The notes beneath the pieces were generated by a model. The model was not told the origin of the DNA. It did not search any database and saw nothing but the letters and a program-made list of their open reading frames with translations. From positions 59,179,966-59,243,965 of the forward strand of contig NC_067283.1 in NCBI RefSeq assembly GCF_020740795.1: a stretch of 64,000 bases of DNA. Reading direction: 5' to 3'. A program made the position numbers and the translations under genes. The stretch comes from Apus apus (Eukaryota > Chordata > Aves > Apodiformes > Apodidae). This document shows, piece by piece, positions 30,606 through 64,000 of the stretch (position 1 is the first letter of the stretch; each line of letters begins with the position of its first letter).

Positions 30606-30627
30606 TATAAGTACTAATTGCAGAATC

Positions 30628-37599: not shown

Positions 37600-37795
37600 A
37601 AGGAAAAAATTCTTCACCATGAGAGTGGTCAAGCATAAAAACAGGGTGCCCAGGGAGGTCATGGAATCTCTGTCCTTACAGATTTTAAGCATGCAACTGA
37701 GCAAGCTTGGAAACTAACTTTGACTGCAGCAGGAGGTTGGACCCCCAGAGGCCTCTTTCAGCCTAGCTTTTTTCCTAAGATTCTGTGATTTACCT
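37600..37795 (+). mobile_element. CR1 LINE 3' shard
   Basis: Degenerate match to the end of CR1 ORF2 and tail (AAAAATTCTTCACCATGAGAGTGGTCAAGCA.., GGAGGTTGGACCC.., AGATTCTGTGATT). Confidence 0.7.
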
Positions 37796-38689: not shown

Positions 38690-39158
38690 AACAAGTCATA
38701 CAATTAGCAGCTGAGGGAACTAGGGATGTTTAGTTTGGAGAAGAGGAGGCTGAGGGGACACATCATTGCCCTCTACAGCTACCTGGAAGGAGATTGTAGA
38801 GAGGCGGGCGATGGCCTCTTCTCCCAAGTGAATAGTGACAGAACCAGAGGAAATGGTCTGAAGTTGCAGCAGGGGAGGTTTAAATTGGATATTAGGAGGA
38901 ATTTCTTTACTGAAAGAGTGATCAGGCACTGAAACAGCCTGCCCAGGGAGGTGGTTGAGTCACCATCCTTGGATGTATTCAAGAAATGTGTAGATGAGAA
39001 ACTTCAGGGCATGCTCTAGTGGCTGAGATTGTAGGCTGGGTGTTTGTGGGGTTTTCTGGGTGTTTGGGTTTTGGTTTTTTGTTTGGTTGGTTTTTTATAG
39101 TTGAACTCCGTGATCTCAGAGGTCCTTTCCAACCATGAATATTCTGTGATCCTGCCAC
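38690..39158 (+). mobile_element. CR1 LINE 3' end spanning the outer palindrome edge
   Basis: 5'-truncated CR1 with the ORF2 C-terminal stretch ([20 protein letters not shown].., [20 protein letters not shown]) and a G/T-rich expansion before GTTGAACTCCGTGATCTCAGAGGTCC. The mirror copy enters from the window's right edge (from 63922). The palindrome therefore extends at least into this CR1. Confidence 0.9.
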
Positions 39159-39165
39159 AACTTTG

Positions 39166-39330
39166 ATGCCAAAGGCAGACGAAAAGCCAAGAGAACGCCC
39201 TACTCGCTTTCGTGTGCATCAGCCTGTGCTACTTAAAATGCCTCAAATTGGAACTGAAGCAACGGTACTAGCAGCTCCAAAACACCTTTATGCTTGGGAA
39301 GCAAAAGAAACTCCACTGAATCAGTACTAG
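39166..39330 (+). pseudogene. Short ORF beside ERV env remnant, origin uncertain
   Basis: A 54-codon frame (ATG to TAG) with coding-like composition (starts MPKADEKPRE, ends KETPLNQY) lies directly after the CR1 tail and upstream of the env TM remnant. It may be an end of retroviral integrase or the start of env, but no motif proves this. It is mirrored at 63749-63913. Confidence 0.35.
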
Positions 39331-39624
39331 ATGAGTAGTAACTGCTTTTTAATCTAAGACCAGCCGGTTGCATGACAACTGAGCATCTCTCTTCGTTTTA
39401 TGTGCTCACAGATATTCCAGAAGCCTGAAAATTGCACCTGAGATCAAGGACTCACCTGTGCTGATCTTGAGTGCCTCTAGGAATATTGATTTTCTTGTGT
39501 TTCGTTTTCTTCTTTTTTATACATTCGACAAAATTTTAGTTAGTAGCATAACTTGTGTGTGTTTTGCTGGATAAGAATGTTTTACAGTAATAATGAATAA
39601 TCAATTGCATATAGAAAATTCAAC

Positions 39625-40207
39625 ATGGCAAGAGTAGAATCTCTAGCTAATTGGGCACAAACAGCTATTGAAGCTACAAACCTTCAGCTGCAGTCAACTT
39701 CACAGGGGACTCTGCAAAACCAATCTGCTTTGGGCGTTGTATCGCTGAAGGAGAACTATATTTATGGGTGGCTGAACGTTACATACCCTCATGAAACCTG
39801 CTGTGTGTCAATTCCAAATGTGTCTTCTTACCCTACAAGAAGCCATGGATGGAATGCCAAGAATTGCTGATGAGACCTGAGAACTTTGCGAGAAGTTGAA
39901 GCCCAGACACATTGGATGGATTTCAAAGATCTTTGATTCATTTGGACTAAATACTAGTGGATGGCTTCAGAATCTAATCCAGTATGCATTAATGTTTGCT
40001 GTTATGTTTGTTGTTGTTATTATTGGGTTGTCATGTGTGAAATCTATGATAACTAGAGCCCTAGCCATGCAGCTTAAAATGCTTCAGGTTTGTGATACTG
40101 AAGGCATCCCTTTAATGCCATCCCCCATCGATGAAAGGAAGGAGGAGGAAGATGGACCCCTCGACCCGCCTAAACCCAAAGTATATGATGTTCTTGATGA
40201 GTTGTGA
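39625..40207 (+). pseudogene. env: ERV envelope transmembrane-subunit remnant (left arm)
   Basis: Two offset frames form the 3' end of a retroviral env. The first (39625-39870, 81 codons) contains an LQNQSAL heptad-type segment followed by an ETCC cysteine pair, placed like the TM ectodomain. The second (39896-40207) contains a hydrophobic membrane span (LMFAVMFVVVIIGLSCV) and a charged cytoplasmic tail ending in a stop 21 bp before the LTR. A stop and a frameshift separate them and the surface subunit is missing, so no envelope protein can be made from this copy. The ERV genus is uncertain. Confidence 0.8.
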
Positions 40208-40228
40208 CTGAGGTGACGGGGTCGATAT

Positions 40229-40859
40229 TGTAGGACAACAGGACAATTGTTAAATTTAACAAAACAAATGCTGTCCTGCCAGTCTGCATAATCCCTCAGC
40301 CTTCCCCAACCCCCAAGAGGGACTGTCTTGCAAAAGGCAGCAGGCTAAATCACTGTGATAAGGAGTTGGGGGCAGAAGGAATAGACCATTGTGTCAGCCA
40401 ACGTATTGGCCAAGATAAAACTCTGGCACCAGGCATGGGCAACACCTTGGCTGCAAACTTGATGACTGGCAATTAGCATGACTTCTAGAGCAGGATGAAG
40501 ATTCTATAGCCTGGGGTGGTAGCAATAAGCCAAAACAATGGAAATTATGACACCTGAGAAATTTGTATCAAGAGCGACACTGGTCCTTTTCCCCTGCCCT
40601 CTCTTAATTGTGTAATATCAGCCTGCAAAGGTACCAGTCAGAAAACTAGGTGGGACCTACTCCCATCTCGTCAGTTAGTATAAATTAGTCTTAGAATCCT
40701 CTCTTTCTCTGGAGGAAGAGATCAACAGCTATCTGGAAAGGCCAATGGGCCCAAATCCTCCCTTCTCCTCCAAAAGGGGATGCCTTTTGGTAAGACTTGC
40801 ACCTCTGACTCTGTTAGATGTTCTTATTTTGTCTTTACTATCTTCACCTAAAATCTACA
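40229..40859 (+). mobile_element. 3' LTR of the env-bearing ERV (left arm)
   Basis: Starts TGTAGGACAACAGG and ends ATCTACA, with 5-bp terminal inverted repeats TGTAG/CTACA, 631 bp. A TATA-like GTATAAATTAG lies near 40678. It immediately follows the env remnant, which supports the 3' LTR assignment. No 5' LTR was found in the arm. Confidence 0.7.
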
Positions 40860-40939
40860 CAGCTAGTGAATTTGCCAACGGCCAAGCTGTCTCAGTTCTC
40901 TCTGGGACTCTGAGACGGGGAAAGGTTGCCTTTTTATGT

Positions 40940-41190
40940 GACACACCCTTGGGAGTTAGTCCTAAAGGGCAAAGGAGTCCAGAAAGGCTGTAAATTCTTC
41001 AAGAAGGGAATCTTAAAGATGTGGCAGCAGGTCTTCCCCATGTGCTGAGAAACAAGCCAGTGGGAAATAAAACCATCCTGGCTGAACAGAGATCTTTGGC
41101 TGAAACTCAGGGGAAAAGAGAGTTTATGGCCTTTGGAAGAAAGGGCAGGCAACTCAGAAGGACTACACAATTTGCAAAGCCCAAAGCAGC
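40940..41190 (+). mobile_element. CR1 ORF2 linker shard (left arm)
   Basis: Resembles the stretch between CR1 endonuclease and RT (GGGCAAAGGAGTCCAGAAAGGCTG.., TGGCTGAACAGAGATCTTTGGCTGAAACTCAGGG, TTTATGGCCTTTGGAAGAAAGGGCAGGCAACTCAG). The same module occurs in the 43065-45500 copy on the opposite strand. Mirrored at about 61889-62139. Confidence 0.75.
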
Positions 41191-43064
41191 TGGGTCTCCA
41201 GTGATACCTGAAGTAGACCGACAAGACTGAGTGATCTATCATTAGATACTACTGGGTGGAAAAAGGTCAGACACCAATCAACTTTTGTTGTGTTTGTAGT
41301 ATTCCCATTCCTGCCTCCACTTTATAAAAGGGTAAGAGCAGTCAACCCAGTCAGTGCTAAAGCCTGACTACAGAAGTACCAACACTGAGAGGAAAAAAGA
41401 AAAAGAGCTTCCCTTCAAGCATTGTATTAGTAACAACTCTAGCTTACTTACAGTTCTATCATACCCATAACATTGTACTGCTGGCTTCCTGTCAGAATGA
41501 TCCTAGCAACTGTTTAGTAGAAAACTGCAATCCACCACACTACTCACAAAAAAAAAAAAAAAAAAGAAAAAAAAAAAGTTGCTGAATATCTGGCAGAACT
41601 ATATATTGCAAATGAGATAAATCTGTGTTACCATAGTATTTTTTTCCACATCTGCTGCAGTTTTTACAATTTGTGCAGTTTTTTTAGGGCAATAACTGTT
41701 TGAGTGCATAACAGTGCAAAGCTATCTAGCTGTCTTAAGTTACTCTAGATGATGTTTAATTTTTAAAGGCGATTCACAGCAAATACTTCAAGAAAACATG
41801 ACTCAAGCTTATCAAGGTACTGCTAACTACATCTTAGTAGAAGTGGTTTTTAAGAAAAATGAAAAAACCCTCCCGGGTTTTTATTAGAAAATAAAATGTT
41901 TCTCTGGTGACTCTGTAAACCTTTACAAGAAAGTATGGCTATATTTTGCCATTAATGGAAATCATAAACATATCTAGTTTATTAAAAAAAAACACCACAA
42001 AACACAAAGATGAGAAGCAAAAGAACAACTTAATACAAATACGTTGCAATCATTCTCCATTTTTATTCTTCTGAAGTACACAGATGCATTACAAGTACTG
42101 ACAATAAGATCCAAATCCCTAAACACCTCTGTAGGGTTTCAGGTAACAGCACAACTCCATAGTGTTCTGTTAATTTAGGCTGCTAGAAAATTAGGTCTGC
42201 AGCACTATAATTTGGTACGAATACCAACAAGCACTTCTGTGTTCATCACAGCCACAGTGTTATAACTTTACCAATCCAGTTCATTCTGAAATCAAGTTGC
42301 AAGAACATCCTGAATTACTGAAGAACATCGTAAGTCACTGTAAGCCAGTTTGTTTAATAGTAAACTTCAACAGTGTTCTAGTCCCTGTACACCAGAATGG
42401 GCTAGAAGAGTGTTTGTTTGGAAGTCTTTCCTAGCATTTCTGGCAACAAAGTAACATGTAAGACCAGAATGCTAGAGGTAGCCACTGAGATAACATAGGA
42501 GGTAGAGTTATTGCTCAAGTCAGTTAACAATTCAAAGGCCAGTACATACATTTGCATTTTAATATTGCCCAAGTCCAAAGGCAAGGGAAACACCTTAAAA
42601 CACAGGGCCTAGAGGTGCAAATGATTTGAAAGAGAAGCTACACATTACTGGTTAAGAAAGCCTGTGCACACTAGTTAGACTGTTGATTTATTAATTGTCA
42701 TGATCCAGAGGTCATGTTTTGAAAGAAGCAATGAAATGTTAATCCTCAAAAAAATATGCACAAATATAATTAAACCAGAACAATGTTTCCAAGCTTTCTG
42801 TATGTCTTGTGTCAGAAGCAGGTTAACCCGTATTATGTTAATTAAATAGGACAGGTTTCATGCCATGATTCTTCTGGTCACTCAATTAGAATGTAAGAAA
42901 ACCAAACCCTTGGAACTCTGGCTCCAGAGGTGGCAGAAAAGTAACACCAAAGTGGAAGAAAACAACAAAATGAAACTTCCAAAAATGTGAAAAGCTTCAG
43001 ATTGTTCTCAAAGCACGAAAGAACAACCTTTGTTAGTTCTAAATTTGGTATATAATGATATTAA
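41191..43064. other. Unassigned stretch inside the left arm
   Basis: Contains the interrupted A-tract at 41548-41577 that carries the only inter-arm length difference noticed. No exon or repeat family recognised. Confidence 0.5.
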
Positions 43065-45500
43065 AATCACAGAATCACAGAATCATCATGGTTGCAAAAG
43101 ACCTCCGAGATCACCGAGTCCAACCTTCAACACAAAAAAACCCAAACCAAAACAAACACAAACAACCACACACACTCCACCAAAAAACACCCACAAAAAA
43201 GCCTACAACCTCAGCCACTAGAGCAGGCCCTAAAGTGCCACATCTACACGTTTCTTGCATACCTCCAAGGACGATGACTCAACCACTTCCCTGGGCAGGC
43301 TCTTCCAGTGCCTGACCACTCTTTCAGTATAGAAATTCTTACCAATATCCAATCTAAACCTCCCCTGCCACAACTTTAGGCCATTTCTTCTGGTCCTATC
43401 ATTATTTACTTGGGAGAAGAGGCCAACACCCACCTCCCTATAACCTCTTTTCAGGTAGCTGTAGAGGGAGATGAGGTCTCCCCTCAGCCTCTTTTTCTCC
43501 AGACTAAACAACCCCAGTTCCCTTAGCCTCTCCTCATATGGCTTGTTCTCTACACCCTTCACCAGCTTGGTTGCTCATCTCTGCACACAGTCCAGCACTT
43601 CAGTGTCCTTCTTATAGTGGGGGTACCAGAACTGAACACAGTACTCAAGGTGTGGCCTCACCAATGCTGAGTACAGGGGCACAATCACTTCCCTACTCCT
43701 GCTGGCCACACTATTCCTGATGCAGGCCAGGATGCTATTGGCCTTCTTGCCCACCTGGACACACTGCTGGCTCATGTTAAGCCAGCTGTCAACCAGCACC
43801 CCCAGGTCCTTTTCTGCTGGTCAGCTTTCCAGCCACCCTTCCTCTAGCCTGTAGAATGGCATGGGGCTGTTGTGACCCGGCACTTGACTTAGTTGAACCT
43901 CATACAATTGGCTTCAGCTCATTGATCCAGCCCATCCAGGTCCCTCTGCAGAGCCTTCCTACCTTCAAGCAGATCAACACTCCCACGCGATTCGGTGTTG
44001 TCTACAAACTTACTGAGGGTGCACTCGATCCCCTCATCCAGATCATTGTTAAAGATGTTGAACAAGACCGGCCACAAAACTGAGCCCTCAGGGACACCAC
44101 TTGTGACCGACCACCAACTAGATATGACTCTGTTTACCACAACTCTCTGGGCACGGCCATCCAGCCAGTTTTTTTACCCAGTGAAGAGTAACACTTGTCT
44201 ATGCCATGATTCACCAGCTTCTCCAGGAGAATGCTGTGGGAGACAGTGTCAAAGGCTTTAATAAAGTCCAGGTGTCCGCAGCCTTCTCCTCATCCAAAAG
44301 GCGGGTCATGTGGTGGCAGAAAGAGATCAAGTTGGTCAAGCAAGACCTCCCTTTCATAAACCCATGCTGGCAGTCCCTGATCCCCTGACTGTCCTGCACT
44401 TGCCATGTGAGATCACTCAAGATGAGCCTCTCCATGATCCTTCCCTGGTATCGAGGTCAGACTGACAGGCCTGTAGTTCCCTGGATCCTTCTTCTGGCCC
44501 TTCCTGTAGGTGGGCATCACATTAGCCAGCCTGCAGTCATATGGGACCTGCCCCATCGACTAGGATTGTTGATAAATTTTGGAAAGAGGTTTGGTGGGCT
44601 CTCCTGACAGCTCCATCAGTACTCTAGAGGGGAATCCATCTTGTGCATGTCTAAGTACAGAAGCAGATCGTTAACACTTCCTCCTGGATAAAAGGGGGGC
44701 TGTTCTGCTCTCCACCCTTATCTTCCAGCTCAGAAGGCTGAACACCCTTGGGGTAGCTGGTCTGACTAGTAAAGACAGAGGTGAAGAAGGCACTAAGTAT
44801 CTCAGCGTTTTCTTCCTTCTTGGTTGCAATTTTCACCCCCACATCCAGTAAATTGTGAAGATTCTCCCTGCCTCCTTCTTTATCGGGGATGTATTTGTGA
44901 AACCTTTTTTTGTTGTCCCTTATGTCAGTGGCCAAGTTGAGCTATAGTTGGGTTTTTGCAGTTCTAATTTTCTATATATATGACTTAAAAAAGATCTCTG
45001 TACTCTTCTTGAGTTGCCTGTCTTGTCTTCCAAAGGTGGTGAACCCTCGTTTTTTTCCTTAGTCTCAGCAAAAGTCCCTGTTTAGCCAGGCAGGCTGTCT
45101 TCCCTGCCAGTTCATTTTTATGACACATGCAGAGACAGCCTGCTTCTGGGCATTTAAGATTTCCTTCTTGAAGAAGGTCCAGACTTTCTGGACCCCTTTT
45201 GCCCTCTGGGACTGTCTCCCAAAGGACTTTTCAACAGGATATCCACCTTATTCACCTCTCCCTTCATCCTTACTCATAAACACTCAACTTTATCATCAGT
45301 CTATACATCCAAGCTCTATACATCCAAGAAAGTCCCTAACATGTAGAGCCACTCCACCACCTCTCCTTCCTTTCCTATCCCTTCTGAAGAGATTATATCC
45401 ATGTATTGCGATCCTGGGTTCTTTCTTCAGCAGCATTTTCCTCATTCATGATAGGAGCTAAAGAATCTTCATTGGGGTTGCTGGACCTGCCCAGCACCGT
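43065..45500 (-). mobile_element. CR1 LINE, longest copy in the window (left arm)
   Basis: It opens with AATCACAGAATCACAGAATCATCATGG (reverse CR1 tail). Read on the - strand it covers part of the endonuclease (GRRGGG-type segment near 45360), a gap, then linker, RT and C-terminal regions. Frames carry [40 protein letters not shown], and a degraded active site (KFVDN where CR1 has FADD). Stops and frameshifts are frequent. The mirror copy is 57580-60015 on the + strand. Confidence 0.92.
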
Positions 45501-45576
45501 GTCAACAGATGCTTCTGCCAGCCCCACATCCCATTCTTCTGCTGAGTTTTCAATCTCTTGTGTATTCACAAGTCTT

Positions 45577-45945
45577 TTCTGGTTTCACAGGAACAGAATC
45601 ACAGGCCAGCCATTAGTAGCCTTGGGTCAGCTGGGAGCTTACGTAAGGGCAGCTGACTAAAATTGACTAGTGTGTATATCCCAACACACTTTTGTGATGC
45701 TCATAAAAGGGGGAAGTCTGCTGGGAGTGGTGAGTTCCATTTTCTGGGGCTTCTCTCTTTTGGCTTGTTGCCCTTTCTAAGGGGATAGGCTGAGTATAAG
45801 CTTGTATACTTTAAGGTGCTGTTGACATTAAGTTTTGTTATTTCATTAAATCTGTTCTCATTTTCACCAATGGGGCTCCTTTCTTGTTCCAGTTTCCCCT
45901 TCTTGTCTGGGGAGCGGCCATCAGATACTTGGAATTCCTGCCCCA
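45577..45945 (+). mobile_element. ERVL-type LTR (left arm)
   Basis: Starts CTGGTTTCACAGGAACAGAATC and ends near the TGTCTGGGGAGCGGCC segment. The same family occurs in the spacer at 50945-51402 (reverse) and as the mirror copy at 57135-57503. The internal CATTAAATCTGTTCTCATTT resembles an LTR polyadenylation region. Confidence 0.65.
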
Positions 45946-47140
45946 GCTTCCAAAAAACAGAACTTGCTTGTGGCTGAAAAACGGTGTAGTGGTTGTTGTT
46001 GAGAGATTTCAAAACGCAACCCTATTCATTTGAAAATATATATTTATTTCTTTGTAGATGTTGCACTAGATCAGTTTTATCATCTAAGGAACCCTTATGC
46101 AGAAGGAATAGCTGTTTAGGGGGGCATTGCACACTCTTTGCCTGTATGCTGATGTCTCCATTAGGTTATGAAGATCACCCCTCTTGCTCCTCCATCCACA
46201 TGATACATGGGAAAAAACTAATGTTAGGAACAGTTGTTTAGCAAGGAGAGTCAAAGTCTCTCTGCTGTGCATACATTTTCCCACCAGTTGCAGCAATGCT
46301 GAAGAGAGGACACAGCTCAGCTTTTCCGACTGGTAGTTGGTAGAAAGGTGTGTAAGGCAATGTGTTGGAGTTCCTTTGTTGCTCATACATTCTGAGTTAT
46401 CATGACTTGTGAGTTCTGGGAGAAGTAATACCTATGTTCTGCTGCACTGTGACAATGCTGATAGTTCAAAAGTGTTTTCAGAGGCACACAGCTTTGTTTT
46501 GGTCTGCACCTCCTAAAAGAACTTTAATTGAAAACTAACTTAAAAAGTAACGTGGCTTTGGTCTCTAGTACAGTAGGTCTGATTTCTCATACTTAATATG
46601 TATGGTAAATATAAATTGATTTCTGTAATACACTCCAACTGTTAGTGGTGAGAAAATGTTTATTGAAACACTTACTGTTGAATTGCCTACCTTAGCTCTT
46701 TCATAAAATTCCACAGAAGAGTGCTTAAAATACTCTTCTAGAGGAATGTGCTGGTTTGTTTTGGTTTCTGCTTAAACTTCTGTGTATGCTACTGAAAACT
46801 GAAATAACTTGTAGTGTCTTACTTGAGATCTTCATCTTGAGTTTCAGGCAGAACACAATCAAAGTTTCTGAAAGTCCGTAAATCAGTTTTATAGGCTCCA
46901 TGGGTTAGAGGTATAAAAGGCTGTATATTCTTTGAATCATTGCCATTCTTTGTGCATGGGGAAGGTTTGCTTATATATTCAGCCTATCTGACCCTTAAGC
47001 AACATTGGTTATGCACAGCAACCTCTAACTGCAGCCCTGAGGGTACCAGACAATCCTTTTAATAAGCCTACTGCCTACATTCTCCAGGGAAAAAAAATGC
47101 TTTCAAGACAAAGCTTCTTCCAAGAAGCAAATATAAAAGA
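45946..47140. other. Unassigned inner part of the left arm
   Basis: No exon or repeat family recognised. Ends at the sharp palindrome/spacer boundary. Confidence 0.5.
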
Positions 47141-48127
47141 AAAATATATAAATCTACAATATCTCAAGGAAGTTTGAGGAACTGCCATTTTACTTCCAAG
47201 TGTCAAAATGGAGGGATCTTTTAATTAAGTTTTAGCTCAGCCATGGCAGAAAGGGGATATTAACCACTCACTGCTATTTTATCAGATTATTTATTTTTCT
47301 TCTTCTCTCTTTCCCTCCTTAACATTATCAATCACTTTCCACTGCCTTACTGACCTACAGAACTCATTGTTTATTTTTTTTAGTTTAATACTTTAAATAA
47401 TGTCCAACGTGCAGAGTTTTATTACTTTAGGCAACTGCTGCTCTCCTTAGATGGAGGCCAGGCAGCAAGAAAAAAATGTTATCTGGTTGCTCACAAGAAA
47501 AATTAGTCCTTCTTAATGTGACGACCAAGGCCCACTGTGCCCCATTTTCCGCTATTGCAGACTCCTAGTACATCTTGTCCTCCTCTCTCTTAGATAAGTT
47601 CAAATTCTTTTGACCTGCTTCCTCTTAGTGTTCATACTTTTGCAACAGATAGGACAAAAAAGAGAATTCTAGATATCTGCTGTAAATTTTGTGTCCACTT
47701 ACGCCAAATAACCTTCACTGTGGTCAGGATTTTGTCCACTGTGTTAGCAGAAAAAAAGATCAAGCAACACAGAATACTTAATATGCCATTTTCAACTGTT
47801 TTGCAATTCATACAAATCTTGGCAGACTCTTTATTGAACTAACATTCTTCAGTTGAGTGAAAAAACAAACTCAGATCTTCAAGAAAATATTTGGATAATA
47901 GATATAATAGATATTTCATTAGGCTTAACAATTTGAAGAATGAGCCGAATGCATATACATTTTTAGATCTGATATCATGCACACTAACAGAATTGAATTT
48001 AGAGTATTTTCCATTTTTTCTTTATGTAAACCAAATATATACATGCAATGACAAGCAGTTGGTTTTAGCTTTGCTATATTACATCCATTCAACACTCAGC
48101 TTACCTACACTTAGAAGTTCAAACTTC

Positions 48128-48585
48128 CAGAGCAAGTCCAGAGAAGGGCCACAAAGATGATCCGAGGGCTGGAGCACCTCTACTACAAAGATGGGTTGAA
48201 AGAGTTGGGGTTGCTCAGCCTAGAGAAGAGAAGGCTCCAGGGAGACCTCATAGAGGCCTTTCAGTACCTGAACTGGGCCTACAGGAAAGCTGGGAAGAGT
48301 CATAGCACAAGGGGTAATGGTTTTAAACTGAAAGAGGGGAGATTTAGGTTAGACATCAGGAGGAAATTCTTCATCATGAGGGTAGCCAAGTGCTGCAATA
48401 GATTGCCTAGGGAGGTTGTTGATGCCCTCTCCCAGCAGGTGTTTAAGGCCACATTGGATTAGGCAGCCTGGTCTTGTATGAGGCAGCCTGATCTAGCATG
48501 AGGTGTCCCTGTTCATAGCAGGGAGGCTGGAATCTGGTGATCTATAATGGTGAACCTTAACTATTCTATGATTCTGATTCTGTAT
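48128..48585 (+). mobile_element. CR1 LINE 3' end (spacer)
   Basis: ORF2 C-terminal stretch (MIRGLEHLYYKDGLKELGLL.., EGRFRLDIRRKFFIMRVAKC) followed by TATTCTATGATTCTGATTCTG. A different CR1 subfamily from the arm copies, judged by its tail. Confidence 0.9.
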
Positions 48586-50944
48586 TTCTTTTGCAACCAT
48601 ACTAATTATAAGATCTAAAGACATTCCAGAAAATAATACTTCAAGATTTTCGCACCTCCAGGAGTACTATTATTGTTGTTATTTTAATATTTTCATATAT
48701 ATTCCAGAAAATGAGACAGAGCAAGTATTCATGTAGTGTGAAAAAAATGGTCAAGTAGCGAAGGAGGTACATCTCATGCAGTAAGCCCCACTACCCTTCT
48801 CACTAGGATATGTGCAGAACTGGAGTAGGACAACTGAACTCCTGGAATGCAAATCCAGCATGGTTTGCTCTAGTCTATGTCTTTTCACATGGTACTGAGT
48901 TTTGCTTATCAGGGTAAACAAGCCTATTCCCATTTGCACAACTGGAGGAATCAAGGAAAGGACAAGGCTTTGCATTTGTAGCTTACCGAAGAGAAGCAAT
49001 TCCATCAGATCCCTTCTCTTGTGCCTCCAAGTCCATACAATTTATGTAGTCCTTGCTTTTCAGAACTATTAATTCCAGAACCTGACATTGAGTTACTCTA
49101 AAACAAACAGAAATCAAAGTAATTGGTACTTAACTTTGATATTTACACTTGAACAAGTAAGATAAAATATGGCTAAATTGGAGTAAGTTTCAAGGCAGAC
49201 AGAAAACATACATTCTTGATATTGCAATGGCCTAATTTGACATGTAAGACAAAGTGTGACAGACTGAAAGTTTATAGGGATCCATAACACACAGTGCTTT
49301 AATCAATTTTGTTCCTTGAAGCAGCAAAATTTTAAGAAAAGCACTTCTAAATATTTTAAAGCAGAATAACTTGTCTCTGCTTATGAACCTTAGAATTTTA
49401 ATAAAGGCATGGAATTTTAAATGTATGATGACAGTATATGTAGGAAAGATAAGCATGTCTTATTGCTATGACCAAGCCACCAAGAAAAAAACAAATCAGA
49501 AAAACTCATCCACTCCCCTCTAAAATCCATAACTTACTTGTTTTCTTAATCTAATACCTTACACATCAGCTTTTTATACGAACAAGGGTGACAATTCTTT
49601 TCAGTTTTTTTAATACTGACTGAAAACTAAATATTACTCTGCATCCTTCCTCGGATTTTAGATAGCACCAGTCATGTCACAGAATTGTGTGAATTAGAAA
49701 TCTAATTAATAGAGGAACTAATTAAACCCCCATTGCAATCTTTCTTTCACCTCTTTGAAACCTCCTTCCTTAAATCAGATCCAAATATGACAAGGTCAGT
49801 GTGCCTTCCTCAGAACAGGAAATAAATCTGCAGTCTAAGAAGAAACTCAAGCTCCATTTTCTTCCCCAAGTCAGTAGAATTTCATCCTAAGTAAGACAAT
49901 AATTTGCAATAAAATGTTCTCTAATATCCAGAAGTATATTAATTGCCTTCCTCAGAGTTGAATGTTACAGGATGATCTTTAGAATTCTTACAAGTTTTTA
50001 TTAGCTGGCACTGAGAAAGCAGAGAAAAAAAGGTTCATTACTATTAAATTGTTATTGCCGAAGCCTCCATTCTTCACAAAGGTGTTCCTTCCCTGCCATC
50101 TTATCTCACCTTCCTTCCCACTGTTTTCTTGACTATTTTGCTACAGTAATCAGAGAAACCTTTTTTTCCACAAATTGCAATGTGAGCACCACTTTCCTGT
50201 ATTAGTTTGGTTTTTTTTCTTCTCGTGCTGGGAATAAAAGGGCTAGGTTGTTTTTTGCCAAGGACCCTTGAATTTCAGTACCTACCCCATCCCAGTTAGT
50301 TAGAGATGTTCAGGGCTAATGCAAATAGCTACTAGGAACAAACTGATTGCTTTTCACTGGTTTGCTTGTCATTCCTCTTCCACCTCTAAAAATTAAGCTT
50401 CTACCCATCAGCCTACAAGAACTGCAAAAAGCCAAAGAATTCCACAAAAAACCCTCGTACCTGTTCAGAAAAAAAATGATCTGTCAATGTTAGATTGTCC
50501 TCATTAAAAGCTGAAGTGTTTTACAGTCAGAAGGGATATCACATGTGCAATGCTGAAAATAGTTGCTATACCATGATTTTGTTTTGTTACCATAACAATT
50601 ACCAATATTTTGAAGAGAATGACTGCTCATTGACACAGCAAAAGGACAATGGGAAGGTGTGTTTTCTTCATCAGTCCAGGAAGTCCCATTGTGTGCCCAA
50701 ATTCAATTATTTCCTGTTATGTTTATTCTTTATCAGAAGCACAACAGCAGCTAAACTGGTAAAAAAAAACCCTAATTCAGCAAGGTACACTGCAGAGATA
50801 CAGCATTTTTTGGACTTTACCTCTTCAAATATCTGTTAGAAGAGGAAAAAAAAGAAGGAAAATAAACAAGAAGCATATAAATATTTCTTGTATTTAAATT
50901 CTTTTGTCAGCTAGAACTTAAAAACAGTTTGCCAAATCAGTGAC

Positions 50945-51402: not shown

Positions 51403-54400
51403 TATTCCACCCCTTATATCATACCATTTACCTTATGCTGAAGTCACTACTCTTCCTGTTTCCTAATATATTTACATATATATACATAGGTATTGATCCT
51501 TTAGTCCATGGATCATTTTTCACAAAGTTCACTGAATTAATTTTATTTAAGCTGTAGGTTCCACTTAGTCCTGGGCAATGAGTTCTATCTCATGAGAGTC
51601 CTTTGTTAGGACAAGATGGTATGATGCACATCAAAGCTCACATCTGGTATAGCTAATTCAGTCTATATACAATTCATGATCAAGATGCTGATACTGGTGA
51701 AGTCACTGGGTGCAGGGTGCTAAGATTCGTTCTTCATTGTTCTGGATGGTTCTTACTGTAATAAATAGCTGAAGAAGCTGTAGCAAGCAGTATCCTATGA
51801 CAATTAACATTATACAGTTAAATTCCTCCCTATTCTCACCCAAAATCATATCTCCTTGCGTAATGCATCTAACTTTCCCATCCTCCTGCATTACTCACCA
51901 AGTGCACCCAGGTCCTTGAAAGAATGGGTTGACCTTGGCTTGAGAAGACCTCTTAATGGACAATTTGATCTGCCATCTCATTCAAGAATTTTTGAGCAAG
52001 AAATGCAGCACACTGCTGCGTTTATACTTCTCCATCATCCTTTTCTAGATCTCTCCTGCATTGGAAATACAACTGTACTTGCACTAACATGTATGTTTTA
52101 CAGTCAAGTCATTCACATTTATCTTCATTTAGATTTTTGACATTTTCAAAATAAACCAGATATTAATATATCATTAATTTAACTTCTTTCACTTGAACTA
52201 GCTTAAAGCAAAGGTTATATGATAGATGGTATTGTGACTGTGGCTTCTTTCAAAATTAAAACTAATCAAATAGTTGTGGAACATGACATGGTTAAAGCAA
52301 AAGTCATCAACTTATAATACAGAGGATGTACATGACTGAAAAAGTAGGACTTCAGGCATATCAGAGCTTCAGCCAGGCTGTTAATTACCCAGATATAACG
52401 ACATGGTATTCATCAGCATCCTGTTTTTTCGAGTGTATGTTAAACTTCTCTTTCTTTTTCAAAAGAAAAAAAGGAACACAACAGAATATTTTTTAAAACA
52501 CATTGCAAAACAACCTTAGATACAAGACCTACACCTGTGCTGACTACTCAACCTCTGTTTCAACAGAATTAGTGCTATCATAAAAATGTCCCATTGATAC
52601 CCTAGCATTTCCTAGCAACAATCTGTGTTTTGTACTTAAAAAAAAAAAATAAATAAAAAAAAAAAAAAAAGTGGATTAAATACTGCCTATGAGGTTTAAT
52701 AGCATAATGAGAAAGAAAACACTTTTTTCCTTTTCCGTGTGAAAAGAAAAGACTCCAATCTGGACATAATACAGAACTTCAGACCATGCTCTCTAAAGTA
52801 CCAAATTACCAAAGAACAAGCAATCTGATTACAAGGTTTCATGTTACTCAAGTTGATCCTTCTAAAAATAAAGTAGGTATTCGTTCCTAAATTCACTACA
52901 GAATCACAGATTTTAATCATGCAATGCACAGAGTGCCCCATAAGATTTTCATAGGGCTGCTTCTGAGGGGGTTTTCCCTCAGAAAATAGTATCCAGTATT
53001 ATTCTAATTTTTGTGAGCCCTTTGAGAGCAAAAGGACTAAGGATAAAGAATGTTCCATGAAGTCTTCTATTTCCAATTAAAAAAATCCCTTGTAACAATG
53101 GCAATATAGCTGGATTGTCATACATTACTCCTAAAAAGCAGCACTGAAAGCATTCAAGCACATAACCACAGCCCATGATAAGCTTGTTTATGGTATTACT
53201 GTAAGATACCTTGTTGTCTGAGTAGGGAGACCTGGACCATGATGAGTAGTCATGAAGATGCATTGAGTTTTGCTTTGTCTGTTTCCTTTAATTAATATGT
53301 GGAGGGGGAACTTGACTCTCCCCTGGCCTCTTGTAGATTCTTGGTAAGCAACACAATGCCTCACCTGCAGTCAAGTGACGGGACAACAGCTTTAGAACTC
53401 ACTTCTTCCCTGCACCTCTAGCTAGGCAGCAGAAGTGTACATAGTGATGAATGGATAGTGAAGTATGTGCACAGTGGATCCAGGAGTGGTGATTTTCTAT
53501 TATTTATCTCTCTAAACTTTTCTTCTCCTACTCTCTCTCTCTCTCTTCCTTCTTAACATCATTCAGTAATGCAAGGCCTAACCACGATTTTTTCTCAGGT
53601 TGTGCAGCTTAAACGTATATGTATTGTACTCCTGTGATCTAATTGTCAGCCTTTATAATCGTGCAGCTTAAGATAATAAGTGAAGTATCTGTATTCGTTC
53701 TACAGTTTTAATTAAACCTAATATTCAAATACAGAACTTGAGTATCATTTCACCTTAATCTGATCAAGGGATATTGGACAGTCGAGCATCTCCTCAGACT
53801 GTGACATTTTGATCACTCTCCCTGGAAGGGCCAGATCTGAGACTAAGGTTGGATCCAGCCGCAATTAGGCTCTTCTCTGAGGATATTAGAAAGCAAGAGG
53901 GTCCAATCTGAATCTCCCTGAGTTGCCCTACTCAGGTGGTGACATATATGTAGCATTTATAATAAAGCATCTCAAACAGGACTGTAGAAGGTTAGAAAAA
54001 AAGATAGAGAAAACAGCATATTTTCATCCATGTGGCACTAACAGCACACAGATTCCAAATCCCATAGTAGCCAAGCAGATAAAAAACAGCAAAGCAACAA
54101 CCCTGCAAAGGAGTGGCATGATAAAGACCAGCCATTTACTCTGGAATATAGGTGTGGAGAATTCAGCTTTGTTCTTCTGGTCAGTTGTTCGGATCTTGAC
54201 TATCTTAATTTCATCATAGCAATTTATTTGCCAGAAAGAAAAGAACTATGTTCTTTTAAACGTTCAATTAAAAAATGTCCCTGTGATTTTCCTTTTCTTA
54301 ATAAAGCACAAAGGAGACACACTAGAAAGATTTTTTTCTTTATTCTTAATACTTTCATGTAAATTCTGTGCCTATGTTTGTGTATCTCAAAACACAGTGA

Positions 54401-54852
54401 AGGGAAGTTGCTTCACGCTGAATCCCTGTTTACAAAGATGTTCACCGACACGTGTAATATATTTTCAACATTCTCTTTGGTGCCACTGAAGATGGCTGTG
54501 CTAAAGCATGATATTGATAATAGGTATTTTTAAAAATATTCAAATTTATTTAGACATTTCTTCATTTTCTCTGACATATTGTTTCTGTCCTGTGGAAGGA
54601 CAAAACTAAGCCGATTTCTCTTACCATTGCTCCCATCCTTACTTCAACATAATTTTTATACAGCAATAGTTAGAGGAAAAATCAAATAAGTTTTGAGTGT
54701 TTCCTTGAAATCCTCTGCAGCATGTAGAACAGATGTATTTAATTTTCTCAATTTGTTATAAAAACTCTGAAGTGTTTTTAAAAACATCTTCAGAAATTCA
54801 ACTCTACTTCAACAGCAGCATCAGAAACATGAATTCAAATTGATGGTAACTC

Positions 54853-55140
54853 ACAGAATCAGAATCACAGAATATTAGGGGTTGGAAGGGACAATGGAGA
54901 TCATCAAGTCCACCCTCCCTGCCAGAGCAGGACCACCACAGAATCTAGGGCAGATCAAACAGAAATGCATTCAGAGGAGTCCTGAAAGTCTCCAGAGAAG
55001 AAAACTCCACAACCTCACTGGGCAGCTTGTTCCAGTGCTCTGTCTCCCTTACAGGAAAGAGGTTTTTCCTCTTGTTGAGTTGGAACTTCCTGTGTTCCAG
55101 TTTGCATCCATTGCCCCATGTCCTACCACAGGGCAGAACA
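54853..55140 (-). mobile_element. CR1 LINE 3' fragment (spacer)
   Basis: Begins CACAGAATCAGAATCACAGAATATTAGGGGTTGG (reverse tail) and continues GGGCAGCTTGTTCCAGTGCTCTGTC..TGTGTTCCAGTTTGCATCC. Confidence 0.9.
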
Positions 55141-57134
55141 GAAACTCACATAAAGTTTGGTGATATGCGTGACACCTAGCTAAAGGACTTTATGTCACAT
55201 ACTACATTTTTAAATGTTTTGCCATAAACATATAGTCTTTTTCTAAGTGAGCTAAAAATGGAAAGTCTACTAGATACACCAGAAAAGGGTGATTTTCCGA
55301 GTTTATCTGGAATTACAGTTAAATGGAAAAGAAAATATATGCTTAAAACTTAATTAGGACTGTGATTTTGTTTTTAATTCTTAATGTTTATATAAGACCG
55401 TAAGTTTACAGGCCTTTATTGATTATTTCAAGGCTTTTCAATTAATTTGAACATGAACTTAGAACCTCCATATACAAGAGCAAACAAGAGACAGCTTAGA
55501 AATGTTTTTCCCCTTCAAACAGGACAGGCAGAATTGCTTCCTAAAGCTTTTCTTGAAATAGAAACATTTGAAAAATGCAAAAGACAGGCACATATACACT
55601 GTCACAAGGAAAAGGAGCAAGAGATTCTCTTTCATCTTGAGAATCACTAAAAATTCACTGCTATAAACAAGCTGACCTAAAAGAAATAATTTCAACCACT
55701 TATTTTAAAACTTTAAGCATATATATATATATTTAAAATACATATAAATTTTAAAGAGGCTGCAAACTCTGAGTCCAGTCATTCTATAAAATATAGGAGA
55801 ATGAGATTTCTCAAATAAAAATGAAAGCTTTTCTTGAGGTATTTCATGTGCCCAGTCATGTGTATCAGTACATCCAGCAAACAGGTTACAAGTTAATGTC
55901 TGCCATTTATGGGAAGACACTACACCATGCAAACAAAAATCTTTTATATTTGCTTCTTGGAAGAAGCTTTGTCTTGAAAGCATTTTTTTTCCCTGGAGAA
56001 TGTAGGCAGTAGGCTTATTAAAAGGATTGTCTGGTACCCTCAGGGCTGCAGTTAGAGGTTGCTGTGCATAACCAATGTTGCTTAAGGGTCAGATAGGCTG
56101 AATATATAAGCAAACCTTCCCCATGCACAAAGAATGGCAATGATTCAAAGAATATACAGCCTTTTATACCTCTAACCCATGGAGCCTATAAAACTGATTT
56201 ACGGACTTTCAGAAACTTTGATTGTGTTCTGCCTGAAACTCAAGATGAAGATCTCAAGTAAGACACTACAAGTTATTTCAGTTTTCAGTAGCATACACAG
56301 AAGTTTAAGCAGAAACCAAAACAAACCAGCACATTCCTCTAGAAGAGTATTTTAAGCACTCTTCTGTGGAATTTTATGAAAGAGCTAAGGTAGGCAATTC
56401 AACAGTAAGTGTTTCAATAAACATTTTCTCACCACTAACAGTTGGAGTGTATTACAGAAATCAATTTATATTTACCATACATATTAAGTATGAGAAATCA
56501 GACCTACTGTACTAGAGACCAAAGCCACGTTACTTTTTAAGTTAGTTTTCAATTAAAGTTCTTTTAGGAGGTGCAGACCAAAACAAAGCTGTGTGCCTCT
56601 GAAAACACTTTTGAACTATCAGCATTGTCACAGTGCAGCAGAACATAGGTATTACTTCTCCCAGAACTCACAAGTCATGATAACTCAGAATGTATGAGCA
56701 ACAAAGGAACTCCAACACATTGCCTTACACACCTTTCTACCAACTACCAGTCGGAAAAGCTGAGCTGTGTCCTCTCTTCAGCATTGCTGCAACTGGTGGG
56801 AAAATGTATGCACAGCAGAGAGACTTTGACTCTCCTTGCTAAACAACTGTTCCTAACATTAGTTTTTTCCCATGTATCATGTGGATGGAGGAGCAAGAGG
56901 GGTGATCTTCATAACCTAATGGAGACATCAGCATACAGGCAAAGAGTGTGCAATGCCCCCCTAAACAGCTATTCCTTCTGCATAAGGGTTCCTTAGATGA
57001 TAAAACTGATCTAGTGCAACATCTACAAAGAAATAAATATATATTTTCAAATGAATAGGGTTGCGTTTTGAAATCTCTCAACAACAACCACTACACCGTT
57101 TTTCAGCCACAAGCAAGTTCTGTTTTTTGGAAGC

Positions 57135-57503
57135 TGGGGCAGGAATTCCAAGTATCTGATGGCCGCTCCCCAGACAAGAAGGGGAAACTGGAACAAGAAA
57201 GGAGCCCCATTGGTGAAAATGAGAACAGATTTAATGAAATAACAAAACTTAATATCAACAGCACCTTAAAGTATACAAGCTTATACTCAGCCTATCCCCT
57301 TAGAAAGGGCAACAAGCCAAAAGAGAGAAGCCCCAGAAAATGGAACTCACCACTCCCAGCAGACTTCCCCCTTTTATGAGCATCACAAAAGTGTGTTGGG
57401 ATATACACACTAGTCAATTTTAGTCAGCTGCCCTTACGTAAGCTCCCAGCTGACCCAAGGCTACTAATGGCTGGCCTGTGATTCTGTTCCTGTGAAACCA
57501 GAA
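57135..57503 (-). mobile_element. ERVL-type LTR (right arm, mirror of 45577-45945)
   Basis: Mirror copy. One substitution (57254 against 45826) lies inside it. Confidence 0.65.
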
Positions 57504-57579
57504 AAGACTTGTGAATACACAAGAGATTGAAAACTCAGCAGAAGAATGGGATGTGGGGCTGGCAGAAGCATCTGTTGAC

Positions 57580-60015
57580 ACGGTGCTGGGCAGGTCCAGC
57601 AACCCCAATGAAGATTCTTTAGCTCCTATCATGAATGAGGAAAATGCTGCTGAAGAAAGAACCCAGGATCGCAATACATGGATATAATCTCTTCAGAAGG
57701 GATAGGAAAGGAAGGAGAGGTGGTGGAGTGGCTCTACATGTTAGGGACTTTCTTGGATGTATAGAGCTTGGATGTATAGACTGATGATAAAGTTGAGTGT
57801 TTATGAGTAAGGATGAAGGGAGAGGTGAATAAGGTGGATATCCTGTTGAAAAGTCCTTTGGGAGACAGTCCCAGAGGGCAAAAGGGGTCCAGAAAGTCTG
57901 GACCTTCTTCAAGAAGGAAATCTTAAATGCCCAGAAGCAGGCTGTCTCTGCATGTGTCATAAAAATGAACTGGCAGGGAAGACAGCCTGCCTGGCTAAAC
58001 AGGGACTTTTGCTGAGACTAAGGAAAAAAACGAGGGTTCACCACCTTTGGAAGACAAGACAGGCAACTCAAGAAGAGTACAGAGATCTTTTTTAAGTCAT
58101 ATATATAGAAAATTAGAACTGCAAAAACCCAGCTATAGCTCAACTTGGCCACTGACATAAGGGACAACAAAAAAAGGTTTCACAAATACATCCCCGATAA
58201 AGAAGGAGGCAGGGAGAATCTTCACAATTTACTGGATGTGGGGGTGAAAATTGCAACCAAGAAGGAAGAAAACGCTGAGATACTTAGTGCCTTCTTCACC
58301 TCTGTCTTTACTAGTCAGACCAGCTACCCCAAGGGTGTTCAGCCTTCTGAGCTGGAAGATAAGGGTGGAGAGCAGAACAGCCCCCCTTTTATCCAGGAGG
58401 AAGTGTTAACGATCTGCTTCTGTACTTAGACATGCACAAGATGGATTCCCCTCTAGAGTACTGATGGAGCTGTCAGGAGAGCCCACCAAACCTCTTTCCA
58501 AAATTTATCAACAATCCTAGTCGATGGGGCAGGTCCCATATGACTGCAGGCTGGCTAATGTGATGCCCACCTACAGGAAGGGCCAGAAGAAGGATCCAGG
58601 GAACTACAGGCCTGTCAGTCTGACCTCGATACCAGGGAAGGATCATGGAGAGGCTCATCTTGAGTGATCTCACATGGCAAGTGCAGGACAGTCAGGGGAT
58701 CAGGGACTGCCAGCATGGGTTTATGAAAGGGAGGTCTTGCTTGACCAACTTGATCTCTTTCTGCCACCACATGACCCGCCTTTTGGATGAGGAGAAGGCT
58801 GCGGACACCTGGACTTTATTAAAGCCTTTGACACTGTCTCCCACAGCATTCTCCTGGAGAAGCTGGTGAATCATGGCATAGACAAGTGTTACTCTTCACT
58901 GGGTAAAAAAACTGGCTGGATGGCCGTGCCCAGAGAGTTGTGGTAAACAGAGTCATATCTAGTTGGTGGTCGGTCACAAGTGGTGTCCCTGAGGGCTCAG
59001 TTTTGTGGCCGGTCTTGTTCAACATCTTTAACAATGATCTGGATGAGGGGATCGAGTGCACCCTCAGTAAGTTTGTAGACAACACCGAATCGCGTGGGAG
59101 TGTTGATCTGCTTGAAGGTAGGAAGGCTCTGCAGAGGGACCTGGATGGGCTGGATCAATGAGCTGAAGCCAATTGTATGAGGTTCAACTAAGTCAAGTGC
59201 CGGGTCACAACAGCCCCATGCCATTCTACAGGCTAGAGGAAGGGTGGCTGGAAAGCTGACCAGCAGAAAAGGACCTGGGGGTGCTGGTTGACAGCTGGCT
59301 TAACATGAGCCAGCAGTGTGTCCAGGTGGGCAAGAAGGCCAATAGCATCCTGGCCTGCATCAGGAATAGTGTGGCCAGCAGGAGTAGGGAAGTGATTGTG
59401 CCCCTGTACTCAGCATTGGTGAGGCCACACCTTGAGTACTGTGTTCAGTTCTGGTACCCCCACTATAAGAAGGACACTGAAGTGCTGGACTGTGTGCAGA
59501 GATGAGCAACCAAGCTGGTGAAGGGTGTAGAGAACAAGCCATATGAGGAGAGGCTAAGGGAACTGGGGTTGTTTAGTCTGGAGAAAAAGAGGCTGAGGGG
59601 AGACCTCATCTCCCTCTACAGCTACCTGAAAAGAGGTTATAGGGAGGTGGGTGTTGGCCTCTTCTCCCAAGTAAATAATGATAGGACCAGAAGAAATGGC
59701 CTAAAGTTGTGGCAGGGGAGGTTTAGATTGGATATTGGTAAGAATTTCTATACTGAAAGAGTGGTCAGGCACTGGAAGAGCCTGCCCAGGGAAGTGGTTG
59801 AGTCATCGTCCTTGGAGGTATGCAAGAAACGTGTAGATGTGGCACTTTAGGGCCTGCTCTAGTGGCTGAGGTTGTAGGCTTTTTTGTGGGTGTTTTTTGG
59901 TGGAGTGTGTGTGGTTGTTTGTGTTTGTTTTGGTTTGGGTTTTTTTGTGTTGAAGGTTGGACTCGGTGATCTCGGAGGTCTTTTGCAACCATGATGATTC
60001 TGTGATTCTGTGATT
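57580..60015 (+). mobile_element. CR1 LINE (right arm, mirror of 43065-45500)
   Basis: Same degenerate ORF2 in + orientation. Open stretches at 58145-58429, 58645-58869, 58940-59161, 59281-59505 and 59518-59850 are successive RT and C-terminal pieces in shifting frames. The tail ends ATGATGATTCTGTGATTCTGTGATT and is preceded by an expanded G/T-rich segment (59877-59950). Confidence 0.92.
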
Positions 60016-61888
60016 TTAATATCATTATATACCAAATTTAGAACTAACAAAGGTTGTTCTTTCGTGCTTTGAGAACAATCTGAAGCTTTTCACATTTTTG
60101 GAAGTTTCATTTTGTTGTTTTCTTCCACTTTGGTGTTACTTTTCTGCCACCTCTGGAGCCAGAGTTCCAAGGGTTTGGTTTTCTTACATTCTAATTGAGT
60201 GACCAGAAGAATCATGGCATGAAACCTGTCCTATTTAATTAACATAATACGGGTTAACCTGCTTCTGACACAAGACATACAGAAAGCTTGGAAACATTGT
60301 TCTGGTTTAATTATATTTGTGCATATTTTTTTGAGGATTAACATTTCATTGCTTCTTTCAAAACATGACCTCTGGATCATGACAATTAATAAATCAACAG
60401 TCTAACTAGTGTGCACAGGCTTTCTTAACCAGTAATGTGTAGCTTCTCTTTCAAATCATTTGCACCTCTAGGCCCTGTGTTTTAAGGTGTTTCCCTTGCC
60501 TTTGGACTTGGGCAATATTAAAATGCAAATGTATGTACTGGCCTTTGAATTGTTAACTGACTTGAGCAATAACTCTACCTCCTATGTTATCTCAGTGGCT
60601 ACCTCTAGCATTCTGGTCTTACATGTTACTTTGTTGCCAGAAATGCTAGGAAAGACTTCCAAACAAACACTCTTCTAGCCCATTCTGGTGTACAGGGACT
60701 AGAACACTGTTGAAGTTTACTATTAAACAAACTGGCTTACAGTGACTTACGATGTTCTTCAGTAATTCAGGATGTTCTTGCAACTTGATTTCAGAATGAA
60801 CTGGATTGGTAAAGTTATAACACTGTGGCTGTGATGAACACAGAAGTGCTTGTTGGTATTCGTACCAAATTATAGTGCTGCAGACCTAATTTTCTAGCAG
60901 CCTAAATTAACAGAACACTATGGAGTTGTGCTGTTACCTGAAACCCTACAGAGGTGTTTAGGGATTTGGATCTTATTGTCAGTACTTGTAATGCATCTGT
61001 GTACTTCAGAAGAATAAAAATGGAGAATGATTGCAACGTATTTGTATTAAGTTGTTCTTTTGCTTCTCATCTTTGTGTTTTGTGGTTTTTTTTTTTAATA
61101 AACTAGATATGTTTATGATTTCCATTAATGGCAAAATATAGCCATACTTTCTTGTAAAGGTTTACAGAGTCACCAGAGAAACATTTTATTTTCTAATAAA
61201 AACCCGGGAGGGTTTTTTCATTTTTCTTAAAAACCACTTCTACTAAGATGTAGTTAGCAGTACCTTGATAAGCTTGAGTCATGTTTTCTTGAAGTATTTG
61301 CTGTGAATCGCCTTTAAAAATTAAACATCATCTAGAGTAACTTAAGACAGCTAGATAGCTTTGCACTGTTATGCACTCAAACAGTTATTGCCCTAAAAAA
61401 ACTGCACAAATTGTAAAAACTGCAGCAGATGTGGAAAAAAATACTATGGTAACACAGATTTATCTCATTTGCAATATATAGTTCTGCCAGATATTCAGCA
61501 ACTTTTTTTTTTCTTTTTTTTTTTTTTTTTTGTGAGTGGTGTGGTGGATTGCAGTTTTCTACTAAACAGTTGCTAGGATCATTCTGACAGGAAGCCAGCA
61601 GTACAATGTTATGGGTATGATAGAACTGTAAGTAAGCTAGAGTTGTTACTAATACAATGCTTGAAGGGAAGCTCTTTTTCTTTTTTCCTCTCAGTGTTGG
61701 TACTTCTGTAGTCAGGCTTTAGCACTGACTGGGTTGACTGCTCTTACCCTTTTATAAAGTGGAGGCAGGAATGGGAATACTACAAACACAACAAAAGTTG
61801 ATTGGTGTCTGACCTTTTTCCACCCAGTAGTATCTAATGATAGATCACTCAGTCTTGTCGGTCTACTTCAGGTATCACTGGAGACCCA
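60016..61888. other. Unassigned stretch inside the right arm
   Basis: Mirror of 41191-43064. The T-run at 61503-61512 is one base shorter than its partner. Confidence 0.5.
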
Positions 61889-62139
61889 GCTGCTTTGGGC
61901 TTTGCAAATTGTGTAGTCCTTCTGAGTTGCCTGCCCTTTCTTCCAAAGGCCATAAACTCTCTTTTCCCCTGAGTTTCAGCCAAAGATCTCTGTTCAGCCA
62001 GGATGGTTTTATTTCCCACTGTCTTGTTTCTCAGCACATGGGGAAGACCTGCTGCCACATCTTTAAGATTCCCTTCTTGAAGAATTTACAGCCTTTCTGG
62101 ACTCCTTTGCCCTTTAGGACTAACTCCCAAGGGTGTGTC
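61889..62139 (-). mobile_element. CR1 ORF2 linker shard (right arm)
   Basis: Mirror of 40940-41190. Carries the substitution partner of 41057. Confidence 0.75.
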
Positions 62140-62219
62140 ACATAAAAAGGCAACCTTTCCCCGTCTCAGAGTCCCAGAGAGAACTGAGACAGCTTGGCCG
62201 TTGGCAAATTCACTAGCTG

Positions 62220-62850
62220 TGTAGATTTTAGGTGAAGATAGTAAAGACAAAATAAGAACATCTAACAGAGTCAGAGGTGCAAGTCTTACCAAAAGGCATC
62301 CCCTTTTGGAGGAGAAGGGAGGATTTGGGCCCATTGGCCTTTCCAGATAGCTGTTGATCTCTTCCTCCAGAGAAAGAGAGGATTCTAAGACTAATTTATA
62401 CTAACTGACGAGATGGGAGTAGGTCCCACCTAGTTTTCTGACTGGTACCTTTGCAGGCTGATATTACACAATTAAGAGAGGGCAGGGGAAAAGGACCAGT
62501 GTCGCTCTTGATACAAATTTCTCAGGTGTCATAATTTCCATTGTTTTGGCTTATTGCTACCACCCCAGGCTATAGAATCTTCATCCTGCTCTAGAAGTCA
62601 TGCTAATTGCCAGTCATCAAGTTTGCAGCCAAGGTGTTGCCCATGCCTGGTGCCAGAGTTTTATCTTGGCCAATACGTTGGCTGACACAATGGTCTATTC
62701 CTTCTGCCCCCAACTCCTTATCACAGTGATTTAGCCTGCTGCCTTTTGCAAGACAGTCCCTCTTGGGGGTTGGGGAAGGCTGAGGGATTATGCAGACTGG
62801 CAGGACAGCATTTGTTTTGTTAAATTTAACAATTGTCCTGTTGTCCTACA
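62220..62850 (-). mobile_element. 3' LTR of the env-bearing ERV (right arm)
   Basis: Mirror of 40229-40859, with the same TGTAG..CTACA ends. Confidence 0.7.
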
Positions 62851-62871
62851 ATATCGACCCCGTCACCTCAG

Positions 62872-63454
62872 TCACAACTCATCAAGAACATCATATACTT
62901 TGGGTTTAGGCGGGTCGAGGGGTCCATCTTCCTCCTCCTTCCTTTCATCGATGGGGGATGGCATTAAAGGGATGCCTTCAGTATCACAAACCTGAAGCAT
63001 TTTAAGCTGCATGGCTAGGGCTCTAGTTATCATAGATTTCACACATGACAACCCAATAATAACAACAACAAACATAACAGCAAACATTAATGCATACTGG
63101 ATTAGATTCTGAAGCCATCCACTAGTATTTAGTCCAAATGAATCAAAGATCTTTGAAATCCATCCAATGTGTCTGGGCTTCAACTTCTCGCAAAGTTCTC
63201 AGGTCTCATCAGCAATTCTTGGCATTCCATCCATGGCTTCTTGTAGGGTAAGAAGACACATTTGGAATTGACACACAGCAGGTTTCATGAGGGTATGTAA
63301 CGTTCAGCCACCCATAAATATAGTTCTCCTTCAGCGATACAACGCCCAAAGCAGATTGGTTTTGCAGAGTCCCCTGTGAAGTTGACTGCAGCTGAAGGTT
63401 TGTAGCTTCAATAGCTGTTTGTGCCCAATTAGCTAGAGATTCTACTCTTGCCAT
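62872..63454 (-). pseudogene. env: ERV envelope transmembrane-subunit remnant (right arm)
   Basis: Mirror of 39625-40207 with identical predicted peptides in both open pieces (63454-63209 and 63183-62872). It has the same separating stop and frameshift, so the break predates the duplication or was homogenised with it. Confidence 0.8.
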
Positions 63455-63748
63455 GTTGAATTTTCTATATGCAATTGATTATTCATTATTACTGTAAAAC
63501 ATTCTTATCCAGCAAAACACACACAAGTTATGCTACTAACTAAAATTTTGTCGAATGTATAAAAAAGAAGAAAACGAAACACAAGAAAATCAATATTCCT
63601 AGAGGCACTCAAGATCAGCACAGGTGAGTCCTTGATCTCAGGTGCAATTTTCAGGCTTCTGGAATATCTGTGAGCACATAAAACGAAGAGAGATGCTCAG
63701 TTGTCATGCAACCGGCTGGTCTTAGATTAAAAAGCAGTTACTACTCAT

Positions 63749-63913
63749 CTAGTACTGATTCAGTGGAGTTTCTTTTGCTTCCCAAGCATAAAGGTGTTTT
63801 GGAGCTGCTAGTACCGTTGCTTCAGTTCCAATTTGAGGCATTTTAAGTAGCACAGGCTGATGCACACGAAAGCGAGTAGGGCGTTCTCTTGGCTTTTCGT
63901 CTGCCTTTGGCAT
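63749..63913 (-). pseudogene. Short ORF beside ERV env remnant (right arm)
   Basis: Mirror of 39166-39330, equally uncertain in origin. Confidence 0.35.
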
Positions 63914-63921
63914 CAAAGTTG

Positions 63922-64000
63922 TGGCAGGATCACAGAATATTCATGGTTGGAAAGGACCTCTGAGATCACGGAGTTCAACTATAAAAAACCAACCAAACAA
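63922..64000 (-). mobile_element. CR1 LINE 3' end, cut by window edge
   Basis: Mirror of the tail of the 38690-39158 CR1 (GAGTTCAACTATAAAAAACC AACC..), still matching at the last base. Confidence 0.85.

Follow-up and report, generated by a model that had tools for sequence, protein, structure and literature searches.

Large near-perfect inverted repeats tend to undergo inversion and gene conversion, and sex chromosomes supply the best-known cases. In birds, 38 palindromes are reported for the duck W in the section of PMC7787181 that deals with them, and a palindrome is described for the W of the white-throated sparrow in the corresponding part of PMC3403216. Among the human inversions that could be analysed and have inverted repeats, 11 of 16 had recurred, as summarised in PMC3961182. 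Inverted segmental duplications are thus a known kind of structure, and as a single structure the palindrome that we describe here from the swift Apus apus is not surprising. Yet a bird autosomal case, with a clear donor, a clear copy and a complete gene running into one arm, would serve to test conversion and recurrent inversion away from sex chromosomes. We studied a 64-kb window (the whole stretch of 64,000 nucleotides analysed here) and its neighbouring sequence, and we conclude with good confidence that the locus is a recent inverted segmental duplication of 28.3 kb on a swift autosome, with the right arm as its donor and the left arm as the copy.

Geometry and content of the palindrome

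Self-BLAST of the window aligned 39079-47140 with 64000-55940 in inverted orientation, over 8,062 columns at 99.926% identity, with five substitutions and one indel, the latter in an A-run. Chance cannot yield an inverted match of this length and identity, and the near-perfect palindrome with arms of at least 8.06 kb proposed in the initial annotation is borne out. The match ends at 47140 and 55940 as sharply as had been claimed, leaving a spacer of 8,799 bp (against the 8.8 kb given there). The proposed start of the region, 39079, does lie in matched sequence but is no arm end: it only mirrors the last base of the window, because the right-hand match stops merely where the window stops. The comparison was extended by 200 kb of neighbouring sequence (264 kb in all, window coordinates kept), and this look beyond the right end, a check suggested from the outset, carried the right arm to 84266 and placed the real outer end of the left arm at 18809. 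The full arms, 18809-47140 and 55940-84266, align in a single block of 28,335 columns, with 99.887% identity, 21 mismatches and five gap openings. A MAFFT alignment of the same arms has 23 substitutions, four of which fall in the 10 bp or so next to the outer breakpoint. Its gaps are one at the outer edge and four internal ones, each 1-4 bp long and in a run of A, T or TTG type; no transposon-size difference was seen anywhere along the full arms. None of the four arm ends carries an N, the sole N run in the 264 kb being a stretch of 74 N at 95968-96041, beyond the window, in a BRD9 intron next to an exon. The two arms are therefore what is called an inverted segmental duplication: two copies longer than 1 kb, more than 90% identical, in opposite orientation and not a transposable element.

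Gene content was tried as a reason for the arms and rejected, since Pfam searches of 39079-47140 and 47041-56040 returned only sub-threshold reverse-transcriptase and one chance match. A six-frame Pfam scan of 1-56040 found a single gene domain, DUF3512 at 22.6 kb, the rest being element scraps or sub-threshold matches; within 1-39078, DUF3512 was accompanied by reverse-transcriptase or RNase H scraps. In the window, nothing in Rfam reached its gathering score, and ARAGORN found no tRNA. Several minor features were also seen: a weak, sub-threshold RNase H match at about 13391-13639 on the minus strand (E 0.002), perhaps an old retroelement scrap; members of a small repeat family, 74-89% alike and in both inverted and direct orientation, at 15101-17372 and 20221-20673, on either side of the left arm's outer breakpoint; a tandem repeat with a 29-bp unit in 4.1 copies at 35181-35299, within the left arm; and CR1 tails of the avian form ATTCTRTG.

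Table 1. Features of the swift palindrome, in window coordinates
Feature	Position	Strand	Basis and remarks
Left arm, inverted copy, 28.3 kb	18809..47140	+	Self-alignment with neighbouring sequence; outer breakpoint ~18809-18820
BRD9 exon, human aa 424-461, left copy	22627..22738	+	Pfam DUF3512, tblastn, splice sites
Short BRD9 exon, ~human aa 462-474, left copy	24276..24314	+	Weak tblastn (E 0.21), splice sites, residues present in swift BRD9
BRD9 exon, left copy	26845..26947	+	tblastn, splice sites
BRD9 exon, left copy	28154..28321	+	tblastn, splice sites
Final BRD9 coding exon with stop codon, left copy	29039..29139	+	tblastn, splice sites
Spacer of 8,799 bp, taken to be native	47141..55939	.	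ZDHHC11 relic in expected place and orientation
Probable ZDHHC11 relic, human aa 14-93, frameshift and stop	53973..54190	-	tblastn E 4e-4, human query
1.28-kb stretch across right junction; the half inside the arm recurs at the end of the left arm	55312..56595	-	Found again at 186435-185154
Right arm, native copy, inner 8,061 bp	55940..64000	-	Self-alignment; continues to 84266 past the window

The BRD9 locus and the direction of copying

Exons of BRD9 were searched by tblastn with a human BRD9 query. The five last coding exons lie in the left arm with splice sites intact and the stop codon present (Table 1), and this search found no earlier BRD9 exon inside the 64-kb window. Across the 264-kb region, these last five exons are present in both arms, and the upstream exons (aa 1-423, with a few residues unmatched) are single-copy and lie past the right arm. 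The only exonic difference between the arms, A/G at 26904, we read as synonymous. The BRD9 protein deduced here finds its best match in Apus apus, at 100% identity across 99% of the part searched. BRD7 was considered as an identity and discarded: two PDB BRD7 chains match the exon at 22628-22738 poorly (E 0.64-0.65) and BRD9 matches exon by exon. After BRD9 comes TRIP13, in head-to-head arrangement, at 110.5-121.9 kb; on the other side, at about -9.0 to -9.3 kb, is a TPPP exon on the minus strand. Human 5p15.33 has the same TPPP/BRD9/TRIP13 order. For the swift, NCBI has entries of 182 and 169 aa named 'bromodomain-containing protein 9-like', placed on a contig as long as C3, whose first residues, MFTSRIPS, derive from former intron sequence. 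This model is probably the left copy, which suggests that the swift 'BRD9-like' protein model is only a truncated copy.

The direction of copying can be read from the ends of the arms. The outer end of the left copy is cut inside a BRD9 intron, and its inner end, at 47140, is cut inside the 1.28-kb stretch, which is whole both across the right junction and in a third copy. Thus, the right arm is the source, because the left copy is truncated at both ends within features that are whole on the right, namely BRD9, whose 5' exons are found there only, and the junction stretch. The second of the two initial readings, a very recent inverted duplication, finds its support in these truncations. Between the arms, the spacer holds a match to ZDHHC11 that is weak, and that has the expected orientation and lies where ZDHHC11 would be expected; the spacer is therefore probably native. 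Genome-wide, the best matches to the human ZDHHC11 query are 57-64% identical and lie on contig C12; these are probably the paralogue ZDHHC1. ZDHHC11 itself may have been lost in the swift.

To explain these results, we propose that a 28.3-kb piece, which begins inside a BRD9 intron and ends about 18 kb past the BRD9 stop codon, would have been copied, inverted, into the TPPP-BRD9 interval, at a point 8.8 kb from its source; the truncations give the direction and the event itself is our reconstruction. The right arm would then belong to the complete BRD9 gene, and the left arm would hold its tail only, without the gene's own start. The breakpoints are A/T-rich and no matching repeat pair was seen on them, so copying probably proceeded via template switching or end joining. 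Since then, divergence between the arms would have reached about 0.07%, accompanied by some gene conversion. Because human inverted repeats are the setting of recurrent inversion, as set out in the inversion data of PMC3961182, we predict that recombination between the arms flips the swift spacer. BRD9 would survive such a flip intact, because both arms carry the same BRD9 3' half and a crossover swaps equal halves.

Arm divergence, the third copy and other readings

How recent is the duplication? Excluding the four substitutions at the outer breakpoint leaves 19, which were used for both divergence and clustering and give d = 6.7e-4 (95% CI 4.0e-4 to 1.05e-3). Bird substitution rates are near 2e-9 per site per year, and the age would then be about 0.17 million years if no conversion took place. 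The differences appear clustered: the longest difference-free stretch, 9,983 bp, has P 0.0056 with 19 substitutions and 0.016 with 16, when three in or near A-runs are dropped (an earlier test on all 23 substitutions, with P 0.0011 for the longest gap, is superseded by the 19-substitution test). With such clustering, conversion may mask a greater age.

A third copy points the same way. The stretch at 55312-56595 occurs at three places in the genome, counting its left-arm part, which rules it out as a dispersed repeat; the third place, C3:59365119-59366400 (window 185154-186435), lies about 129 kb off and holds the stretch whole. Compared with this copy, a 0.9-kb tract at 55597-56498 differs by a 2-bp gap alone, and the adjoining 55312-55596 differs at 25 columns (20 substitutions and 5 gap columns). 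Collinear pieces past the tract are 86.5% and 75.8% alike. Judged from these alignments, the mosaic suggests gene conversion, or else another recent copying event, between sites about 129 kb apart. The arm-to-arm gene conversion invoked at the outset thus gains some support, from the clustering and from the mosaic, and is indicated rather than proved.

One could go further and envision an autosomal counterpart, in a bird, of the Y and W palindromes, with arms held alike by conversion, a third partner about 129 kb off and a spacer that flips repeatedly while BRD9 stays unharmed. This is a speculative and rather improbable reading; if it were true, the last five exons of a live gene would be common to two places. 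An old autosomal palindrome, its arms kept alike through frequent arm-to-arm conversion as in Y and W palindromes, is an unlikely explanation of the locus, even though the 9,983 bp without differences speak for it and the third-copy mosaic makes conversion across such a distance likely. The G+C content of the arms, expected to be raised in a palindrome kept by conversion, is 0.410 and not above that of the flanks (0.404 and 0.410; the spacer has 0.367). The outer half of the arms holds more than its share of the differences (14/19), but not significantly so (P 0.064), and the lack of transposon-size differences fits youth too.

Could the palindrome come from the assembly, through a haplotype copy or a chimaeric read folded into the contig? 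The divergence of 0.07% is within, or just below, the heterozygosity range of 0.1-1.1% given for VGP genomes in the relevant part of PMC8081667, where false duplications are called among the commonest errors, and of the five differences that are indels or adjoin runs, four fall in homopolymers or simple repeats. Yet a fold-back creates one false join, commonly where a contig ends or has a gap, and leaves little or no spacer; the left arm would need two, at 18809 and 47140, each free of N and with the expected neighbours on both sides. Moreover, the errors described in those passages of PMC8081667 take the form of haplotype contigs or of duplications, one read in length, at the ends of contigs; no inverted copy with a spacer is among them. 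A 2.8-kb mid-arm piece has two full-length genome matches, the other 40 listed matches being pieces at 85% or less, and no further full copy was found on a small contig when 40 of the 1,410 candidates were scored. We consider an artefact very unlikely, bearing in mind that the left-arm junctions come from one assembly.

The genome searched comprises 1.10 Gb in 110 contigs, and the locus lies on C3, a contig of 157,038,886 bases on which the window occupies 59179966-59243965, with TPPP, BRD9 and TRIP13 as neighbours. Many of the birds listed have BRD9 on a contig of about 148-175 Mb, and some on a shorter one (for example 44, 99, 118 and 135 Mb). The DMRT genes mark the Z, and the swift DMRT trio lies on contig C36. 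In PMC full text, we found no report of BRD9 with a germline-restricted chromosome and no mention of bApuApu; one paper combines BRD9, named once, with a bird W chromosome. The initial preference for ampliconic sex-chromosome or germline-restricted DNA, suggested by a shape and identity like those of the W palindromes described in parts of PMC3403216 (white-throated sparrow) and PMC7787181 (duck), is hardly credible given the autosomal gene order on a 157-Mb contig, which speaks against a germline-restricted chromosome as well, the similarly large BRD9 contigs of many birds, the DMRT trio on another contig, and a mid-arm piece in two full copies only among the candidates scored.

Comparison with known palindromes and duplications

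The recent duplication that we favour places the swift locus among several described systems. It resembles the W and Y palindromes (human P6, PMC3723533; the duck W, PMC7787181; the sparrow W, PMC3403216) in its long arms of about 99.9% identity and in possible conversion. Unlike them, it lies on a large autosome-type contig, is single and lacks a multicopy gene family, and a native gene runs out of one arm. Partial gene duplications, in which a truncated copy sits beside its parent, offer a second likeness, for the left copy consists of the last five exons, cut in an intron. Here, however, the copy is inverted and carries 18 kb of downstream sequence. Human inverted repeat pairs form the third group, and HsInv0389 among them is the FLNA-EMD case. 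Like the pairs treated in the inversion survey (PMC3961182; HsInv0389), the swift locus has two highly alike inverted copies round a spacer, and unlike them it is one pair in one assembly, with an inversion that is only predicted. Within the known class of inverted segmental duplications, the swift structure is a well-placed bird autosomal member.
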